Source of the DNA: Selenomonas sp. TAMA-11512
Lineage (GTDB): Bacteria > Bacillota > Negativicutes > Selenomonadales > Selenomonadaceae
Assembly: GCF_037076525.1 (NCBI RefSeq)
Contig: NZ_AP029018.1
Location: 2,497,001-2,561,000 of the forward strand
Direction of reading: 5' to 3'
Length of the DNA stretch: 64,000 nt
Below are positions 4,910 through 61,229 of this stretch, in pieces. The first letter of the stretch is position 1, and every line of letters starts with the position of its first letter. The notes under the pieces are model-generated. The model was given only the letters and a program-made list of their open reading frames with translations. It was not told the DNA's origin and ran no database searches. Made by a program: the position numbers and the translations under genes.

Positions 4910-5222
4910 TCAAAGAATTCGGCATAAGACGTCTCTGCCCGTATTAATACGCAAGAAGCATGCCAAAAATCTGTGTCATCTGTGTTGAATCGTGTGCTCT
5001 TCTTTTATTATGCGGAAGAATACGGATAAATATTTTTTAATTTAATGCAGTCAACACAGAAAATTTATTTGTGTCAGCATCTGTGTTATAATGAATCTAC
5101 AAAGAACATGAAATGTGTCGATTGTATGATGCTTTTCTATACTATCCCTGCGGCAAACAAATAATGTGCGCGGCATCCGATGACTGCGTCCGCGCAGAGG
5201 AGGAGGCGAATATGTCCAAGCA
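4910..5222. repeat. Duplicated LevR/PTS control region, copy 2
   Basis: Nearly identical to 3457-3763, with a few substitutions and small indels. It serves the divergent pair: minus strand toward the dehydrogenase (sigma-54 promoter 4951-4965) and plus strand toward the activator (extended -10 TGTTATAAT, TATAAT at 5087-5092). It ends inside the first codons of the activator gene, and is the copy with the full-length gene attached. Confidence 0.88.
4951..4965 (-). promoter_or_regulatory. Sigma-54 (-24/-12) promoter, copy 2, for the dehydrogenase
   Basis: The same TGGCATGCTTCTTGC sequence as copy 1 on the minus strand. It is about 90 bp upstream of the dehydrogenase start. Perfect conservation of the core while surrounding bases vary supports function. 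Confidence 0.78.
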
Positions 5223-7728
5223 GACAGATCGGCGGCAACGTATTCTGTCGTTCATAGAGACCCATATGCCCCCGGACGGCTATGATGCCTCCTATATTGC
5301 GGAGTTCCTCGGGCTGGATCGCGCCAATACGAGTCGAGAGCTGAATGCGCTGAGCCGCGACGGTCTCCTCGTGCGGATTGCGGGACGACCTGTTCGCTTC
5401 CGCATCGAGACGCACCCTGCAGCTGCGCTCAATACTCTGTCCGCAGAAGAACCGCCAGATGCGGAGCCTGGAACAGATCCCGAAGAGCAGGCGCTCCCTG
5501 CGGCAGAGAGCATGCTGGAAGCGTCCGAGGCACCGCTGTCAATCTTTTCCCGCATGATCGGCTATGACCAGAGTTTGAAGATGCCCATACAGCAGGCAAA
5601 AGCTGCCGTCCTCTATCCGCCGCACGGCCTCCACACGCTGATCGTAGGTGCAACAGGCGGCGGTAAAACCACGCTTGCCAAGGTGATGTATCTCTACGCA
5701 AAAGAAATGCATCGCCTGGACAGCGATGCACCCTACGTCATATTCAACTGCGCCGATTACGCAAAAAACCCGCAGCTGCTCCTGTCACATCTCTTCGGAC
5801 ATAAGAAGGGCGCCTTTACCGGCGCGAACGAAGAACGGGAGGGCATTGTCGAGAAGGCGGACGGCGGCATCCTCTTTCTCGATGAGATCCATCGCCTCCC
5901 GCCCGAGGGGCAGGAGATGCTCTTCTCTCTCATCGACCGAGGCGAGTACTATCGGCTCGGGGATACGGAACACATCCGCAGTGCGGACATCCTAATCCTT
6001 GCCGCCACGACGGAACAGCCGAATACGGCGATCCTGAAGACACTTTTGCGGCGCATTCCCAACGTCATTAAGATGCCGGATCTGAAGGAGCGCTCACTCG
6101 AGGAGCGCTACTATCTGATCAAATCGTTCTTCCAAAAGGAAGCGAAGAATATGGCGCTGTCCTTTTCTGTCTCGGCTGAAATCATCAAATTCTTCATGAG
6201 CTACGACTGCCCCGGCAACATCGGCCAGCTTGAGAACGACATCAAACTCGTCTGTGCAAATGCCTTCGTTAATTATATTGTAGGCAACGAGAGAGATCTC
6301 TTCATCGGTCTCTCGCACCTCCCTCCGCCGTACCTTGCCGATTTCGACATGCTGACCGAAGGCCGCGGGCTGCTGGACTCCTTTTTCTACGACGGTCGGG
6401 CGGAGGATCTGTTTTTCTCCCCCGATCAGCCGCTCTCTCCACCGCTGAACGAGTCGGAAGATCTCAATATATATCAGCTCATGGAGAATCATTCGAAAAA
6501 ATACTTTGCGGACGGGCTCTCACAGAAGACGATCAAGAAAATCTTCAACAACCAGATTGTCGAACAGTTCCAATACGTCTCGTCGAAATCGGGAAAACGT
6601 CCGGTCGGCGCGGATGAGTCCGCATTTTTAAAAATTATCTCGGCGGATATCTATGAGCCCATGAAGGCGGCAATTAGTACCCTGAAAGAAGATTTCGACG
6701 TCACACTGCCGCCGCAGGTGTTCCACGGGCTCGTGCTCCACGTCGAGACGATGGTCGAGCGCGTGCGGCGCGGGCGGGCTATCCCTGTACCGGAGAGCAG
6801 CGATGCCGAACTGTTCGACAACAAATACTATCAGGCGGCACAGTACCTCGTCCGTGTTCTTGAGGATCATCTGAATCTCACGCTTCCGGTTCAGGAGGCG
6901 ATCTTTATCTCACTCTACCTCCAGACGCTCGATCTCACCGTCAACGACAAGCACGTCGGTATCCTCCTGCTGTCGCACGGGTATCACGCAGCGGTCGACA
7001 TGGCTGTGGTCGCAAACCGGCTGCTCGACGTCGACCACGCGCACGGCCTGTGCATGCCGCTCGAGGAAAAGGTGAGTCAAGCGCTTGCGCGTGCGACACA
7101 GTTCGTTCAAAAGATCGATGAGGGCAAGGGTGTCCTTATCCTTGCGGATATGGGTTCCCTGCATACGTTTGGCGGTCTCATCACGAAGGCGACAGGGATC
7201 AAGACACATACCATACGCATGGTCAACCTCCCCCTCGCTATCGAGGCGACGCGCAAGGCGCTTCTTCCGGCGATGACGCTTGAAAATCTGGTCGAGGAAC
7301 TGGATAAGGAGACGTGCATCGCTGCATCACACGAAGAAATCACACAGAAGAAAGACCTCCTCTACTCGTCCAAACGCATCTTTCGGCTTGTAGAGGGAAC
7401 GTTGATCTTCCTGGATTCGAAAAAGGCGATTCCTCTGCTCGAAAAAATCTTTCTGGGGATTCTGTCAGACCTCGGAATCGAGCAGACGCCAAACCTCTAT
7501 ATCAAGTTCATCTTTCACACGGCCTGTATGCTCGAGCGAGCCATACGGAACGATCCGCTGGTGTACGAAAATCTGCAGGAACTTCAGATGACGCATCGAT
7601 CTCTCTATCAGACCATTGCCTCCGCCTTCGATGTCGCGGAGCGAACGTACGGCATCGAGATTTCAGAGGGTGAGCTCTGTTATATCACAGAGATTTTTGC
7701 CTACGAAATGGCAAGGGCCTCTCAATGA
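5212..7728 (+). CDS. levR: LevR-type sigma-54 activator with PRD and PTS EIIA-like domains
   Basis: 838 aa from ATG 5212, chosen because of the strong gaggaggaggcg ribosome site. Order: an N-terminal HTH (QTDRRQRILSFIETH, residues 1-65); an AAA+ ATPase with Walker A GATGGGKTT near residue 146 and the sigma-54 contact loop GAFTGA near 200; a PRD region; an EIIA-Man-like domain with LLLSHGYHAA near 585; and a second PRD at the C-terminus. LevR proteins activate sigma-54 promoters of Man-family PTS operons and are controlled by PTS phosphorylation of PRD and EIIA histidines. Transcribed divergently from the dehydrogenase and followed by rpoN. The name is by family; the substrate need not be levan. 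Confidence 0.9.
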   Translation: MSKQTDRRQRILSFIETHMPPDGYDASYIAEFLGLDRANTSRELNALSRDGLLVRIAGRPVRFRIETHPAAALNTLSAEEPPDAEPGTDPEEQALPAAESMLEASEAPLSIFSRMIGYDQSLKMPIQQAKAAVLYPPHGLHTLIVGATGGGKTTLAKVMYLYAKEMHRLDSDAPYVIFNCADYAKNPQLLLSHLFGHKKGAFTGANEEREGIVEKADGGILFLDEIHRLPPEGQEMLFSLIDRGEYYRLGDTEHIRSADILILAATTEQPNTAILKTLLRRIPNVIKMPDLKERSLEERYYLIKSFFQKEAKNMALSFSVSAEIIKFFMSYDCPGNIGQLENDIKLVCANAFVNYIVGNERDLFIGLSHLPPPYLADFDMLTEGRGLLDSFFYDGRAEDLFFSPDQPLSPPLNESEDLNIYQLMENHSKKYFADGLSQKTIKKIFNNQIVEQFQYVSSKSGKRPVGADESAFLKIISADIYEPMKAAISTLKEDFDVTLPPQVFHGLVLHVETMVERVRRGRAIPVPESSDAELFDNKYYQAAQYLVRVLEDHLNLTLPVQEAIFISLYLQTLDLTVNDKHVGILLLSHGYHAAVDMAVVANRLLDVDHAHGLCMPLEEKVSQALARATQFVQKIDEGKGVLILADMGSLHTFGGLITKATGIKTHTIRMVNLPLAIEATRKALLPAMTLENLVEELDKETCIAASHEEITQKKDLLYSSKRIFRLVEGTLIFLDSKKAIPLLEKIFLGILSDLGIEQTPNLYIKFIFHTACMLERAIRNDPLVYENLQELQMTHRSLYQTIASAFDVAERTYGIEISEGELCYITEIFAYEMARASQ

Positions 7729-56250: not shown

Positions 56251-56872
56251 CGGCTTCTCCCTCCGGTACATTGCACAGCAGCGTCACTTGAATGACAAAA
56301 TGACTCACTTCTTCATCTAAAATGTGAAAGACCTCTTCCAAATAGCTGAAAACGTCGTGCACATCTCCACCCAGAAATGTCACATAGTGACCGGTTCCGC
56401 TGACAATCCCCCGATCTATGCCTCGATTGACCAACGTTTCAATCAAGTGCATATACTCCCCCGAGCCCATCGGATAGACGGAGAATTTCCCGATGACGGG
56501 AAATTGCACTGCTTGACCGGCCGATTCGTTGACACGCATGCCTTCAAAGGACAGAACGGTATCATCGTCGACATCCCCCGGGCAGCCCTTTGAGATCGTA
56601 GCCTCCAATGCGCTGTGTATGCCGGGCCGATAGCTGAAGAGAAAGCATGCCTTCAGCGCGTCAAAGACCTCTGCGCTCCCCCCGCGGTAAACGGTTGACG
56701 TGTGGTCCGTCTTCGCCCAGACGTTCGACAGATCCACCTTCTTGATCGCGCCTAAAATGATGTTGATAAAATCATCCGACATGGGCGTCAGACTGAAACG
56801 AGCCCCCGTGATCTTGAGGTGAGCTCCCGATACCCCGACACGGCAGCCGCCGTAAGAAACATGCTGCATCAT
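56243..56872 (-). CDS. ykoF: YkoF-family thiamine/HMP-binding protein
   Basis: About 209 aa from ATG 56872 (or 56869). Two repeats of the YkoF fold: GARFSLTPMSDDFINIILGA with KTDHTSTVYRGG, and VIGKFSVYPMGSGEYMHLIE with SGTGHYVTFLGG. B. subtilis YkoF binds thiamine and hydroxymethylpyrimidine. An upstream extension of the frame to 56956 runs through the terminator and is not the real start. The ribosome site aagggga is the 3' arm of the terminator stem. Confidence 0.9.
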   Translation of the reverse strand: MMQHVSYGGCRVGVSGAHLKITGARFSLTPMSDDFINIILGAIKKVDLSNVWAKTDHTSTVYRGGSAEVFDALKACFLFSYRPGIHSALEATISKGCPGDVDDDTVLSFEGMRVNESAGQAVQFPVIGKFSVYPMGSGEYMHLIETLVNRGIDRGIVSGTGHYVTFLGGDVHDVFSYLEEVFHILDEEVSHFVIQVTLLCNVPEGEADE

Positions 56873-56913
56873 AAAAAAATCCCCTTTCAAGATCTTCGTC
56901 ATCTTGAAAGGGG
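56873..56913 (-). terminator. Rho-independent terminator of the TPP riboswitch
   Basis: On the minus strand CCCCTTTCAAGAT, loop, ATCTTGAAAGGGG, then ATTTTTTT, immediately before the ykoF start. It is the probable expression platform of the riboswitch. The 3' arm contains aaagggg, the likely ribosome site, so folding also hides it. Confidence 0.88.
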
Positions 56914-57037
56914 CCACCATTTCGTGTGTAAACTGCGCGCCGAACATCCGCTTCACGGGCTTGCGCGCCGCCCTTGCTTGAGCATGCCTTCCGCCTGCCC
57001 TCTCGGGTCTTCACTGCATAAGCTTCCGGAGTTGTTT

Positions 57038-57128
57038 AAGATGCTCTCTACGCAACCATGAAGTTGATCAGATGATATTGGTCTGTTTCACACACTCTCA
57101 GCCTCCCTGACGAGACTCCCAAGATCTT
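57038..57128 (-). ncRNA. TPP riboswitch (THI element)
   Basis: On the minus strand the conserved TPP aptamer pieces appear in order: P1 arm AAGAT...GTCTC, the GGCTGAGAG pyrimidine-sensing element, CAGACC, ATCTGATCAACTTCATGG, GCGTAGAGAG and the closing ATCTT. It precedes ykoFEDC as in Bacillus. Binding of thiamine pyrophosphate would favour the downstream terminator and shut uptake off. Confidence 0.88.
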
Positions 57129-57147
57129 AATTATTCAATTTGCACCC

Positions 57148-57176
57148 ATTGTATCAAACAACCCTATGAAAATCAA
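57148..57176 (-). promoter_or_regulatory. Promoter of the riboswitch/ykoFEDC operon
   Basis: On the minus strand TTGATT (57171-57176), 17-bp spacer, TACAAT (57148-57153). The start point would be about 12 bp before the aptamer. Confidence 0.7.
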
Positions 57177-57315
57177 TACTTCCTCGCTATTTTGCCGGGA
57201 TTGCTTCCTGAGATTATTTGATGTATTTTTGTATCCATTCAGGGAGGAGATATTATGTTGGAGCCGGCAAAGCCGCGGCCATCATGCAAAATCTTATCCG
57301 CGCTTCCTTACTATT

Positions 57316-57429
57316 ATTTCCGTTTCTTGCAAGAATCGGAAATGAAATATACTTCTCTCGGATAGAAAACTCCGTTTCTCTTGAAAAACGGAAATATAAA
57401 GGCTATAATAAGCATAGAAATTTCCGTTT
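57316..57429 (+). promoter_or_regulatory. Fic promoter with three TTTCCGTTT operator-like sites
   Basis: Promoter TTGAAA (57381-57386), 17 bp, TATAAT (57404-57409). Inverted repeat 1 (57316-57343): ATTTCCGTTTC and GAATCGGAAAT. Inverted repeat 2 (57369-57394): TCCGTTTC and AAACGGAAAT, overlapping the -35. A half-site TTTCCGTTT (57420-57428) lies just after the -10. The layout implies a repressor, perhaps the Fic protein through its C-terminal wHTH. Confidence 0.7.
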
Positions 57430-57453
57430 GTATAGTAGTAGGTGGGAATGCAC

Positions 57454-58602
57454 ATGGAAGCACGTGCAGGATATTTGCGACAGAATCTGACAGGTGCGCT
57501 TGCCTATTCCTCCTTTGTTCCTAAGTCTCTGCCGCCCGACCCGCCTGTCGCACTTGACACAGAGGGCATGACCCTCCTCGTTGCGGCGCATCGTCAGCTC
57601 GCTCTGCTGGAGGGGCTTGCTGCGCGCATCCCGAATATGGATCTGTTCATCTCCATGTACGTCCGCAAAGAAGCGCTTCTCTCCTCCCAGATCGAGGGAA
57701 CACAGGCAACGCTGGACGATGTGCTTGACCCGCTCGCGGATGTGAATGCCAATCGGGACGTGGCGGATGTTGTGAACTATATCCGCGCGACGGAGTTCGC
57801 CCTGCACCGCCGCACGGAGCTGCCCCTCTGCAATCGGCTGATTCGTGAGATTCACGGCGTTCTGATGGAAGGTGTGCGCGGACAGGAGAGGTATCCGGGT
57901 GAGTTTCGACGTACGCAGAACTGGATCGGCGGCACCGGCAGCACGCTGAAAAATGCGCGCTATATTCCTCCGAATGTAGAGGATATGCACGCAGCACTGT
58001 CTGCACTTGAATCCTATATGCATGAGGCGGATACCCTCGATCCTCTCATCCGCGCGGCACTCATCCACTATCAGTTCGAGACAATTCATCCGTTCCTCGA
58101 CGGCAACGGACGCGTCGGACGACTCCTGATTACGCTTTTCCTGATGGAAGAAAACCTTCTAAGTGCGCCCGCACTCTATATCTCCTATTTCCTCAAGCAG
58201 AACCGCATCGAATATTACGACCGCATGACGGAGGTCCGACGCACGGGAAACTACGAGCAGTGGATCCTGTTCTTCCTGCGCGCCTTGGCGGACTCCGCCG
58301 AGGATGCCATCCGTACGATTGACCGGCTTTCCGCCCTGCACGAAAAAAACGAAGCGATTTTAAAGCAAAATGTGAGTAAAAAACAGATGGGAACTCTGAG
58401 CAAACTCTACTCCTACCTCGAAGCTCATCCGATCCTCGAAGTGAAGAAGACGGCGGAATCCATCGGCATCTCTTATAACGCTGCGGCACGTGCCGTCGCC
58501 GTGCTCGTCGAAAAGGACATACTGAAGCAGCAAAAACAGGTCGGGAAAACGCGAATTTATTCCTATACCGCATATTTGGAGATCCTGCGGGGCGATATGT
58601 AA
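57454..58602 (+). CDS. Fic-family protein with C-terminal winged HTH
   Basis: About 382 aa from ATG 57454 (ribosome site aggtggg). The inhibitory motif SSQIEG lies upstream of the Fic core, with the complete catalytic HPFLDGNGRVGR near residue 212. The C-terminal 80 residues form a winged helix (KKTAESIGISYNAAARAVAVL). Fic enzymes transfer AMP or a similar moiety; self-inhibition is of class II. Its promoter has three related inverted repeats. The last 190 codons recur almost identically at 59885-60466. Confidence 0.92.
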   Translation: MEARAGYLRQNLTGALAYSSFVPKSLPPDPPVALDTEGMTLLVAAHRQLALLEGLAARIPNMDLFISMYVRKEALLSSQIEGTQATLDDVLDPLADVNANRDVADVVNYIRATEFALHRRTELPLCNRLIREIHGVLMEGVRGQERYPGEFRRTQNWIGGTGSTLKNARYIPPNVEDMHAALSALESYMHEADTLDPLIRAALIHYQFETIHPFLDGNGRVGRLLITLFLMEENLLSAPALYISYFLKQNRIEYYDRMTEVRRTGNYEQWILFFLRALADSAEDAIRTIDRLSALHEKNEAILKQNVSKKQMGTLSKLYSYLEAHPILEVKKTAESIGISYNAAARAVAVLVEKDILKQQKQVGKTRIYSYTAYLEILRGDM

Positions 58603-58740
58603 CGGTGTCCTCCCTATCTGCTATACACGTCAGACACATTAGAGAAGGAAAACCGATCGGACAGCCGTTTTCATCTGCGCTTGTTTAAAAGCACAGCCGC
58701 TCCGAAGCGACTTGGCAGCGAGCCCCTTTTCAATATCACA

Positions 58741-58789
58741 AAAAGTGCAGCTGTCGGAGACGCATCATCTCCGACAGCTGCACTTTTTT
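58741..58789. terminator. Terminator after the Fic gene
   Basis: AAAAGTGCAGCTGTCGGAGA and TCTCCGACAGCTGCACTTTT, 20-bp stem with a T tail. A near-identical stem is at 60515. Confidence 0.85.
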
Positions 58790-58864
58790 CGTATGCTCTC
58801 CCATACTTGCAATAAGGGGGCTATTTTCCATCCGGTCTCCATGCAGCCGGCCGATAAGCATGAT

Positions 58865-58910
58865 GACCCCGAAGCGTCAGATTCCGAGTCGAGTCTGACG
58901 CTTCGGGGTC
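58865..58910. terminator. Stem-loop after the DUF4198-like gene
   Basis: GACCCCGAAGCGTCAGA and TCTGACGCTTCGGGGTC form a 17-bp perfect stem 42 bp past the stop at 58952. It has no long T-run but is a likely terminator for the minus-strand gene. Confidence 0.6.
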
Positions 58911-58951
58911 ATGTCAAAACAGCTTCGCAGGGCTGTTTTTCAGAGCACGGC

Positions 58952-59674
58952 TTACTCTGCCGGAAGGATGAACGAGAGAGAGCTGAAGATCTTCTTTGTC
59001 ACCTTCGGGTTGTCCGTCGGGAACCCGACCTCGACGCCGATCACATTAAGGCCGTTGTTCGCCACACGCACGGTGATATATCCGTTGCCGTCCGCCTCCG
59101 TCTCGGTGGTGAGATCGCCGAGCACGTCCGCGATTACGGGCGCATTCGCATATGGCGCGCCGTCCTTGTAGATGCGCAGCTTCAGCGTATCGCCGCGGCG
59201 CAGCGTCAGCGGATTCACTTCCGGCACAATCTGAATCGCCACATCAGAAATTTTGCTCGGCTTCACGAGTGCATTCCAATAATGCACATTGTACTTGTAC
59301 GCGTAGGTGACCGACTTAAGATTCTTGATCTTCGAGAAGTCGCGCGTCGGAATGACCTTTCCGTCCGTCGTCTTCGCAAAGTAGCCGTAGTCGAAGAACG
59401 TCGCCGTCACGCCGAGATTCTCCCCGGGCACGATCGTGATATTCTTATCGCCGTTCACGCGCTTCACCGACGTCGGCCGGAAGTTCACATCGTAAGCGTC
59501 GATGCGCTTCACGCACGCGGGATCGTAGGCATTGTCCAGGGGGCCCTCACCGAGCACGAGCGCCGTCTGATCGACGCGGTTCGCGTAGTAGACACCGTGC
59601 GCATCCGCAGGCGCCGCGTACATGCCGAGTCCCAGCGCCGCGCCGAGCGCCGCCGCCAAAAATCTTTTCTTCAT
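58952..59674 (-). CDS. DUF4198-type periplasmic protein
   Basis: 240 aa from ATG 59674 (ribosome site gggagg; an adjacent ATG is at 59677). A signal peptide (KRFLAAALGAALGLGMYAAP, cleaved before HGVYYANR) gives a mature N-terminal His, then PGENLGVTATFFDYGYFA and LKLRIYKDGAPYANAPVIAD, the beta-sandwich of DUF4198 proteins, some linked to nickel or cobalt uptake. No metal transporter is adjacent. It lies between the complete Fic gene and its partial copy. Confidence 0.82.
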   Translation of the reverse strand: MKKRFLAAALGAALGLGMYAAPADAHGVYYANRVDQTALVLGEGPLDNAYDPACVKRIDAYDVNFRPTSVKRVNGDKNITIVPGENLGVTATFFDYGYFAKTTDGKVIPTRDFSKIKNLKSVTYAYKYNVHYWNALVKPSKISDVAIQIVPEVNPLTLRRGDTLKLRIYKDGAPYANAPVIADVLGDLTTETEADGNGYITVRVANNGLNVIGVEVGFPTDNPKVTKKIFSSLSFILPAE

Positions 59675-59884
59675 CATATATCCTCCCATCGAAAACAATA
59701 TTGCGCGGATCCTTCCGCCATACTTCTGTCATTATAGTACAAATAATCATCGTTTGCAATAAAGAAGGACATGTTTCTCTCCTCATTCTGCCGTGATATG
59801 GAAATGTCCCTCTCCGCTGGCAGCACAGGGAGCGGATCAAGGTTGCTGGAATTGCATGCTCCGCAGCATCGCGACATGTAGGGG

Positions 59885-60466
59885 CATGAGGCGGATACCC
59901 TCGATCCTCTCATCCGCGCGGCACTCATCCACTATCAGTTCGAGACAATTCATCCGTTCCTCGACGGCAACGGACGCGTCGGACGACTCCTGATTACGCT
60001 TTTCCTGATGGAAGAAAACCTTCTAAGTGCGCCCGCACTCTATATCTCCTATTTCCTCAAGCAGAACCGCATCGAATATTACGACCGCATGACGGAGGTC
60101 CGACGCACGGGAAACTACGAGCAGTGGATCCTGTTCTTCCTGCGCGCCTTGGCGGACTCCGCCGAGGATGCCATCCGTACGATTGACCGGCTTTCCGCCC
60201 TGCACGAAAAAAACGAAGCGATTTTAAAGCAAAATGTGAGTAAAAAACAGATGGGAACTCTGAGCAAACTCTACTCCTACCTCGAAGCTCATCCGATCCT
60301 CGAAGTGAAGAAGACGGCGGAATCCATCGGCATCTCTTATAACGCTGCGGCACGTGCCGTCGCCGTGCTCGTCGAAAAGGACATACTGAAGCAGCAAAAA
60401 CAGGTCGGGAAAACGCGAATTTATTCCTATGCCGCATATTTGGAGATCCTGCGGGGCGATATGTGA
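59885..60466 (+). pseudogene. Partial duplicate of the Fic gene (3' half)
   Basis: From catgaggcggataccctcga onward it is almost identical to 58021-58602, keeping the catalytic HPFLDGNGRVGR and the winged helix; one late codon differs (Thr to Ala). The N-terminal half with the inhibitory helix is missing, and the upstream sequence is unrelated. A small ORF from ATG 60008 starts after the catalytic motif. A recent local duplication. Confidence 0.88.
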
Positions 60467-60514
60467 CGGTGTCCTCCCTGCCTGCTATATAATCCGATGA
60501 CGATTTCCCCCTAT

Positions 60515-60566
60515 CAAAAAAAGTGTAGCTGTCGGAGACGCATCATCTCCGACAGCTGCACTTTTT
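60515..60566. terminator. Bidirectional terminator
   Basis: AAGTGTAGCTGTCGGAGA and TCTCCGACAGCTGCACTTTTT stem, the duplicate of the one at 58741. It also ends the minus-strand aldolase operon. Confidence 0.85.
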
Positions 60567-60572
60567 GTTGAA

Positions 60573-61229
60573 TTATCCTCCCTTTGCAGGTTTGTGCCGA
60601 TTTCGCACACTTGCCGCATGTTCGTTACACATGCGCTCCCATGCCTCCTCCGGAATATCACTGACCTCGCCGATCGTTTTCGCCAGAGTATAGATCTTCA
60701 TAACCTCTTCCCCCGCCTCAAGAATCGCAACCGCCGCTTCCAGCGTCGGCCCCACCGTGAGGCACCCGTGATTTGCCAAGAGCACGAGATCTCGGTTCGC
60801 CATCGCGTCTTCGATTCCGTCTGCGATCGCAGCTGTTCCCGGCTGTCCGTACGGCAGACAGGGGATGTCCTCGAACAGGAGTCCGAACGTCGTCGAACAA
60901 TGCATGCGAACGGTTTGATTGCAAAAAGCGAACGCTGTGAGATGCGGCGCATGTGTATGCACGGCGGCATTACAATCAGGACGAGCACAGAGCGCCGCCT
61001 GATGCAGGAGATACTCACTGGAATACTTACAGTTCCCGCCGATTTGTCGATCGCCTTCCATCACGGCAATCATCTCCGGCGTGAGCAGGGATTTCCTCTT
61101 GCCCGAAGGCGTGATGTAGAGTTTTCCCGTCTCCCGGTCAAGTATGGAGATATTGCCCTCCAGAGAATTGACCAGCCCTTTCTCCTCCAGAAGCTTTGCG
61201 TAAAATACAACCTCTTCTTCTTTTGTCAT
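60573..61229 (-). CDS. Class II aldolase/adducin-family protein
   Basis: 218 aa. Zinc-binding HTHAPHLTAFAF and the late LLANHGCLTVG are the fuculose-phosphate aldolase/ribulose-phosphate epimerase hallmarks; NSLEGNISILD binds the phosphate. It probably cleaves a phosphorylated ketose from the PTS encoded upstream. Ribosome site gaggtgatctg. Last gene of the operon. Confidence 0.9.
   Translation of the reverse strand: MTKEEEVVFYAKLLEEKGLVNSLEGNISILDRETGKLYITPSGKRKSLLTPEMIAVMEGDRQIGGNCKYSSEYLLHQAALCARPDCNAAVHTHAPHLTAFAFCNQTVRMHCSTTFGLLFEDIPCLPYGQPGTAAIADGIEDAMANRDLVLLANHGCLTVGPTLEAAVAILEAGEEVMKIYTLAKTIGEVSDIPEEAWERMCNEHAASVRNRHKPAKGG

Follow-up and report, generated by a model that had tools for sequence, protein, structure and literature searches.

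A conserved operator array at a SoFic-like fic promoter of Selenomonas, and its covariation with the winged helix of the Fic protein

The subject of this report is a gene for a class II, SoFic-like Fic protein (fic, 57454-58602, plus strand) in a stretch of 64,000 nucleotides from Selenomonas sp. TAMA-11512, here called the window, to whose first letter all coordinates refer unless a locus is named. An ordered array of repeats extends across the fic promoter, and we propose that fic is repressed by its own product, acting through this array; we put the probability of autorepression at somewhat under nine in ten. The first-pass annotation of this DNA had suggested a Fic protein that represses its own gene, and comparison among homologues now supports that suggestion: operator spelling tracks the recognition helix of the protein, within the genome the palindrome is restricted to the fic promoter, and the sites lie over the -35 and on both sides of the -10.

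The operator array

Five half-sites of the AATTTCCGT type, alternating in orientation, precede fic and are separated by gaps of 12, 22, 12 and 22 bp. They are O1L (57315-57323, plus strand, TATTTCCGT, 8/9 matches to AATTTCCGT), O1R (57336-57344, minus strand, 7/9), O2L (57367-57375, plus strand, AAACTCCGT, 7/9), O2R (57388-57396, minus strand, ACGGAAATA, 8/9) and O3 (57419-57427, plus strand, 9/9). A strong σ70-like promoter, TTGAAA-17-TATAAT (57381-57409, 11/12 in the promoter scan), lies inside the repeats and is interleaved with them on the plus strand, the -35 hexamer (57381-57386) falling between O2L and O2R and the -10 hexamer (57404-57409) between O2R and O3, which follows it immediately. 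The array has a period of 52 bp, about five helical turns. Repeat finding returned the same elements as a 28-nt palindrome of 93% (57316-57343, half-sites 1 and 2), a pair of inverted-repeat arms (57371-57380 and 57383-57392), and direct repeats 52 nt apart. The earlier description of inverted repeats upstream of, across and downstream of the -35 and -10 thus holds for real and more ordered repeats, except that the third of them, at 57419-57427, is a single half-site. A reading of the repeats as RNA structure was set aside because O1, O2 and the -35 all lie upstream of the expected transcript.

How unusual is such an array? In a fixed-gap scan, with gaps taken from the geometry of the homologues and not chosen blind, the array scores 39/45; the next-best non-overlapping position in the window scores 33/45, and 39 was reached by none of 2000 mononucleotide shuffles of the 148-nt region. 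The sequence TTTCCGTTT occurs four times in the 64 kb, three of them at the fic promoter, and 100 shuffles gave a mean of 0.56 with none reaching four. In the whole 2.59-Mb genome, at no more than two mismatches, the palindrome is found as the two copies at the fic promoter only (a control pattern, 1). The search was extended to five genomes from a single other genus of the family. Two of them (G086 and G087) have the palindrome at the fic promoter, and two without this fic (G008 and G036) have none at no more than two mismatches. In G079 the operator palindrome is intact at the promoter of a broken fic copy (locus L121, 1418-1540), in which a stop follows 14 codons after the start and the remainder matches residues 177-385.

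Conservation of the layout

Homologues were taken from genomes, from GTDB species contigs (the best 80 of at least 584 loci) and from viral contigs. They include Clostridiales, a Selenomonadaceae bacterium, Gastranaerophilales, Spirochaetales, Synergistaceae, Olsenella and Sutterella, many as metagenome bins. Several phyla are represented; across them the layout is kept and the spelling of the half-site differs. In 77 of 98 regions, the best inverted repeat within the 110 nt upstream paired at 9 or more of its 10 arm positions, a count that includes the window and keeps near-identical rows, and that leaves out matches starting after residue 12, loci with less than 170 nt of upstream DNA, and own-genome duplicates. 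The same criterion was satisfied by 21/419 flanking windows and about 12% of 1960 shuffles.

When 93 upstream regions were aligned, most rows showed one layout: an outer half-site, an O2 pair around the -35, the -10, and O3. Among 70 non-redundant rows, in a geometry analysis whose search for O2 was aided by a -10 term, the O2L-O2R gap is 12 in 55/68, the O1R-O2L gap is 21-22 in 50/54, and the O2R-O3 gap is 21-22 in 58/59. O3 matches at 7/9 or better in 59/70 homologues, as against 17% with shuffled half-sites, although for O2 and O3 such rates are in part circular, each row's half-site having been derived from O2L, O2R and O3. O1R was unused in that derivation and lies outside the core promoter; it is still found at the 21-22 spacing, in 54/70 homologues versus 23% with shuffled half-sites.

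Covariation of the operator with the recognition helix

The first-pass annotation had placed a winged helix at the C-terminus of the protein, and the AlphaFold2 model bears this out, as does the structural match to SoFic. The modeled domain spans residues 309-370 (58378-58563, plus strand), with helices at 309-324, 330-337 and 341-353 and strands at 358-363 and 366-370; its predicted local distance difference test score is 85-94 over residues 301-380 (mean for the model, 86.3). The Pfam HTH_24 match alone falls below its cut-off (13.4 versus 21.9 bits). The third helix is the recognition helix (58474-58512, plus strand; N342 codon 58477-58479, R346 codon 58489-58491).

Operators of the family are spelled TTTCCG (the window and its close kin), TTTCA (the commonest), TTTTGA, TTTTAC or AAACTCA. 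Does this spelling follow a particular part of the protein? In one-sided partial Mantel tests on 70 rows, operator distance at positions 4-9 was compared with the distance of each protein segment, the rest of the protein being controlled. The winged helix-turn-helix (wHTH) correlated with the operator (r 0.213, p 0.002), and the recognition helix more strongly (r 0.270, p 0.001), whereas Fic_N (p 0.39), Fic (r -0.273, p 1.0) and the linker (p 0.28) did not. A mutual-information scan also placed its three top columns in the wHTH; we prefer the partial Mantel test because the permutation null of the scan ignores the tree. An alignment-free test, which required a long-enough protein and used 103 of 124 rows after removal of near-duplicates and short ones, likewise gave r -0.247, p 0.003 for the wHTH, and p 0.20 for the rest of the protein. 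Operator spelling thus tracks the wHTH of the Fic protein itself and not its other segments, as judged from these sequence comparisons.

At the level of single residues, N342, second in the recognition helix, ranks first among 332 variable columns (r 0.545; the column analysis was numbered from an ATG at 57448, where N342 is N344). The residue rules that follow were first found by looking and then counted, which lowers their weight. In 83 rows, operator bases 6-7 other than CA, CC or CT accompany 11/11 proteins in which residue 342 is not Asn and 0/72 in which it is (8/8 versus 0/62 in the 70 non-redundant rows). R346 goes with TTTCC in 5/6 rows, as against 1/77 otherwise, and Y347 together with F351 goes with ACTC in 7/7, as against 0/76. 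In upstream DNA viewed after the R346 rule had been noted, L154, with R346, has TTTCC, and L155, L156 and L157, without the arginine, have TTTCA; L156 and L157 are near-identical, and L158 repeats L119. On a tree built without the wHTH, sites of the TTTTGA/TTTCGA kind with Ser342 form two starred clades, of 7 and 2 rows, with weak intervening branches, and the ACTC sites arise in two places. The pattern suggests that residues 342, 346, 347 and 351 should set specificity.

Autorepression and its alternatives

A number of points weigh against autorepression, in addition to the partial circularity and the manner of finding the residue rules already mentioned. The support for binding and repression is comparative. 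In its own genome, at no more than three mismatches, the palindrome has 3 sites, one more than at two mismatches, versus 5 for the control pattern, and G086 has an extra palindrome at another gene, 2.6 kb off. The closest relatives, L117 and L118, have a degenerate O1. In seven of the 93 rows (L041, L061, L093, L107, L108, L114 and L115) the aligned register gave no coherent half-site, and these rows are absent from the mutual-information, tree, anchored Mantel and geometry tests; by eye, L061, L107, L114 and L115 have differently spelled repeats elsewhere, L041 is mixed, L108 has nothing clear, and the excluded L093 had a wrong start. The R346 rule is violated by L098 and L101. Enrichment of wHTH columns is modest, with 4 of the top 10 (p 0.11) and 8 of the top 20 (p 0.025), and the alignment-free test contained one far pair only with similar helices, so that convergence between far lineages is hardly covered. 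Since just two to three operator changes on the tree are both independent and well supported, a sign test cannot reach 0.05 and is powerless here. Finally, a motif repeated in both directions reached p<=0.05 in only 9/32 far homologues, namely 8/14 plasmid copies and 1/18 others.

The extra palindrome of G086 (L207, 4818-4843) precedes an IrrE-like (Peptidase_M78) gene by about 100 nt; a DUF4411 gene comes next (4945-6604 for the two), and together they make a toxin-antitoxin-like pair. Because an IrrE-like gene is divergent from fic and directly upstream of it in G087 and G079 (L117 and L121), the G086 copy may be the displaced half of a shared intergenic region.

How would autorepression work? 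Binding of the protein to the array, repression rather than activation, the pairing of a dimer on the sites, and the toxicity of the enzyme are things that we infer. A Fic dimer would use its two winged helices to bind the alternating half-sites, at spacings of 12 and 21-22 bp, or several dimers would bind there side by side. With a period of 52 bp, or about five helical turns, the sites would lie on the same face of the DNA. Occupancy would cover the -35 (by O2L and O2R) and the surroundings of the -10 (by O2R and O3) and so exclude RNA polymerase, and this exclusion would keep a potentially toxic enzyme scarce. A coupling of AMPylation to transcription, also raised in the first-pass annotation, is a plausible hypothesis.

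One might think that fic is controlled by some other regulator, encoded by the host, for which the repeats are the binding sites. As operators they are typical, host repressors commonly have more than one site, and binding by Fic is predicted. Against this, the spelling of the operator varies with the recognition helix of the Fic protein itself, and the palindrome is limited to the fic promoter in its own genome and absent from two genus mates without this fic. BLASTP clustering of flanking open reading frames (ORFs) at 93 loci, up to 3-6 kb and with many of the flanks shortened by contig ends, disclosed no regulator or partner gene conserved beside fic. We therefore consider a host regulator improbable. 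Slightly less probable still is that the Fic protein binds the array and mainly activates, or that the DNA serves as an allosteric switch for the enzyme, with no repression. Control of toxicity by the C-terminal domain, as reported for EcSofic (PMC12249575), would fit such a role; the positions of the sites, over the -35 and around the -10, are ones from which a bound protein usually blocks polymerase, and CccR is reported to repress from similarly placed sites (PMC9755527). Might the repeats instead have no part in regulation, being left over from a mobile element or an A+T-rich palindrome that arose by chance? In favor of this, fic occurs patchily and is also carried by plasmids and phage-type contigs, and about 2 kb off there is a truncated second copy; but spacing to the -35 and -10 is near-constant across homologues and such repeats are rare in flanking windows and shuffles, which leaves the idea with very little credit. 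Autorepression by the fic product remains the reading that we favor.

The Fic protein

The fic ORF is real: Pfam Fic_N and Fic are both above cut-off, Fic at 78.6 bits versus 24. Its likely start is the ATG at 57454, giving a protein of 382 residues (Fic_N, Fic and winged helix), because the starts of close homologues align there; the GTG at 57442, called by the ORF tool, was set aside on the same ground. The catalytic motif HPFLDGNGRVGR (residues 212-223, 58087-58122, plus strand) agrees with the class II form HxFx(D/E)GNGRxxR. N-terminal to it, as in class II proteins, is an inhibitory-helix motif, SSQIEG (residues 77-82, 57682-57699, plus strand), which has the form (S/T)xxxE(G/N) defined in PMC9755527 and is invariant or at least 90% conserved at every position in an alignment of 57.

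The best PADLOC model is SoFic (384 bits, 2.3e-115, residues 17-379), and among solved folds SoFic 3zcn matches best (Z 37.5 over 356 residues, model residues 7-382), as Foldseek also finds. Identity to 3zcn is about 26%, and the NCBIfam SoFic equivalog cut-off is not reached (180.3 versus 550 bits); by these scores the window protein is a relative of SoFic and not an equivalog. A stand-alone cassette encoding a predicted AMP transferase is the best explanation of the gene.

Related systems and implications

The closest parallel is CccR of Yersinia pseudotuberculosis, a proven Fic autorepressor, established by lacZ fusion, gel shift, footprint and isothermal titration calorimetry; promoter activity is 3.3-fold higher in the deletion mutant, and the footprint spans AGATAATCAT-N26-ATGATAATCT (excerpts of PMC9755527, also the source for what follows on CccR). 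Like the window protein, CccR is of class II, with an N-terminal inhibitory helix and a C-terminal helix-turn-helix (HTH), and inverted repeats lie near the -35 and -10 of its own gene; binding and repression are proven for CccR and predicted here. CccR has one pair of inverted 10-bp boxes with an N26 spacer, comparable to the N21-22 pairs of the window, which has instead an alternating array of half-sites with gaps of 12 and 21-22. CccR is moreover an effector of a type VI secretion system, and we liken the two proteins by architecture and promoter sites, not by sequence kinship. In the excerpts, its authors state that the HTH sets CccR apart from all other functionally characterized Fic proteins, an architecture that recurs here in a large family.

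SoFic itself (PADLOC SoFic; PDB 3zcn and 3eqx) resembles the window protein in domain order, inhibitory-helix class and fold, the C-terminal domain included, and differs from it in sequence to the extent given above. Sofic is described as a single-protein anti-phage system (PMC12249575), and by profile and modeled fold the window protein would belong to this phage-defense family. Excerpts of PMC10628234 state that SoFic had not been shown to bind DNA. EcSofic is reported to be dimeric and to need its C-terminal domain for toxicity, a domain that in the apo form is turned outward relative to that of ATP-bound SoFic; a 47-residue antitoxin, AS1, is encoded downstream of EcSofic, and no search for an equivalent was made here (PMC12249575). 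Tight repression matters, since cloning of wild-type EcSofic is reported to have failed with a single lac operator (PMC12249575). CbFic2 of Coxiella burnetii is likewise a class II protein with a winged HTH, and its fold matches the model at Z 23.8. It binds DNA through the wHTH with nanomolar affinity, in this case random DNA and possibly nonspecifically; its target is histone H3, and no operator is described in the excerpts (PMC10628234). Because the C-terminal domain takes different positions in apo EcSofic and ATP-bound SoFic, and because the wHTH of CbFic2 binds DNA, a nucleotide-dependent choice of half-site spacing is conceivable.

A wider proposal, which we hold to be doubtful, is that class II SoFic-like proteins are one-gene toxin/repressor switches, in which the dimer reads two spacings, the catalytic state could set the choice of operator, and the code relating helix to operator holds across phyla. 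If this were so, the toxin itself would contain the DNA-binding repressor, for which other toxin-antitoxin systems have a separate antitoxin, the spacings of 12 and 21-22 bp would match different relative positions of the winged helices, and activation of the enzyme, for instance by phage infection, would also release its own promoter. Phd-Doc offers a comparison: there too a Fic-fold toxin shares in the control of its own promoter, as proposed here, although the DNA-binding domain is in a separate antitoxin and the window protein carries its own.

What is new in this? Class II makes up 80% of Fic proteins, and its function and modulation were described as nearly unknown (PMC9755527). In the open PubMed Central literature, outside of which lie subscription papers and preprints, CccR is the one Fic protein that the excerpts describe as a repressor of its own gene by means of a DNA-binding domain of its own, and they describe no conserved operator array or helix-operator code for SoFic-type genes. 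Fic autorepression is thus known from CccR, and what appears to be new is a conserved multi-site array across a wide family together with a readable code from helix to operator. Judging by the comparisons, a widespread part of class II, which moves horizontally, appears to control itself through its own winged helix. The named residues and bases make the claim directly testable, and the family offers natural repressor-operator pairs of differing specificity.

Distribution and distant homologues

The gene is patchily distributed, being found in 11/189 genomes of the family (E<=1e-40) and 12/380 of the class (E<=1e-90), and homologues also occur on plasmids and phage-type contigs. In viral contigs L127, L128, L129 and L133, fic has a terminase large-subunit gene on its upstream side and a portal gene on its downstream side, forming a moron-type insertion among phage head genes; PHROGs identified the terminase in L127, L128 and L133 and the portal in L127, the remaining assignments coming from BLASTP clustering. 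Among the flanking ORFs, ABC-type proteins form the largest cluster (8 loci), followed by terminase (7) and portal proteins (5), both of these in viral contigs.

Among far homologues, helices of the PT type accompany ATTAAAG-like sites by eye in L107, L166, L168 and L197, with a related PS helix in L135. L160, also with a PT helix, has the site TATTAAAA; two near-identical viral copies with a PT helix (L137 and L140) have TTTAATAA instead and did not reach p<=0.05. Four alphaproteobacterial copies with a SAPTVNAAL helix (L167, L199, L200 and L201) have TTAAATAA-like sites by eye, only L201 at p<=0.05. These pairings are leads only. L009 (40% identity), which is not among the 32 far-homologue result rows, has no clear array in its upstream DNA. 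Five SoFic-like genes of about 35% identity (L010, L011, L013, L015 and L016), with helices of the SRKTA type, show TTACCCA/TTACTCA repeats by eye around a TTGATA/TATAAT-like promoter, none at p<=0.05 in the repeated-motif test, and are possibly a second family with the same layout.

The fic neighborhood

A strong, terminator-like hairpin follows fic at 58743-58785; the scan listed it on the minus strand, and a plus-strand T tail was read from the sequence. About 2 kb from fic is a truncated second copy of its 3' part (606 bp, 59884-60489, plus strand), 99.3% identical to 58020-58625 and followed by a second copy of the terminator-like hairpin. Its ORF, 60008-60466, keeps the winged helix and has lost the catalytic motif. 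This copy may be a remnant in decay, or it may supply a free DNA-binding domain that acts on the operators of fic. On the other side of fic, Rfam found in 56500-61000 only a thiamine pyrophosphate riboswitch (57027-57132, minus strand, 54.7 bits against a gathering threshold of 54.3), which heads divergent YkoF-like and ABC transporter genes adjoining fic.

The same genome encodes another Fic protein (L006, C1:59536-62769), of 28% identity and with an HTH-like C-terminus. Upstream of it, by eye, is a different perfect palindrome with 18-bp arms, AATATGAAATATAAAAAA and TTTTTTATATTTCATATT, about 77-36 nt before the first possible start, and from this arrangement L006 may be a second self-regulated Fic gene.
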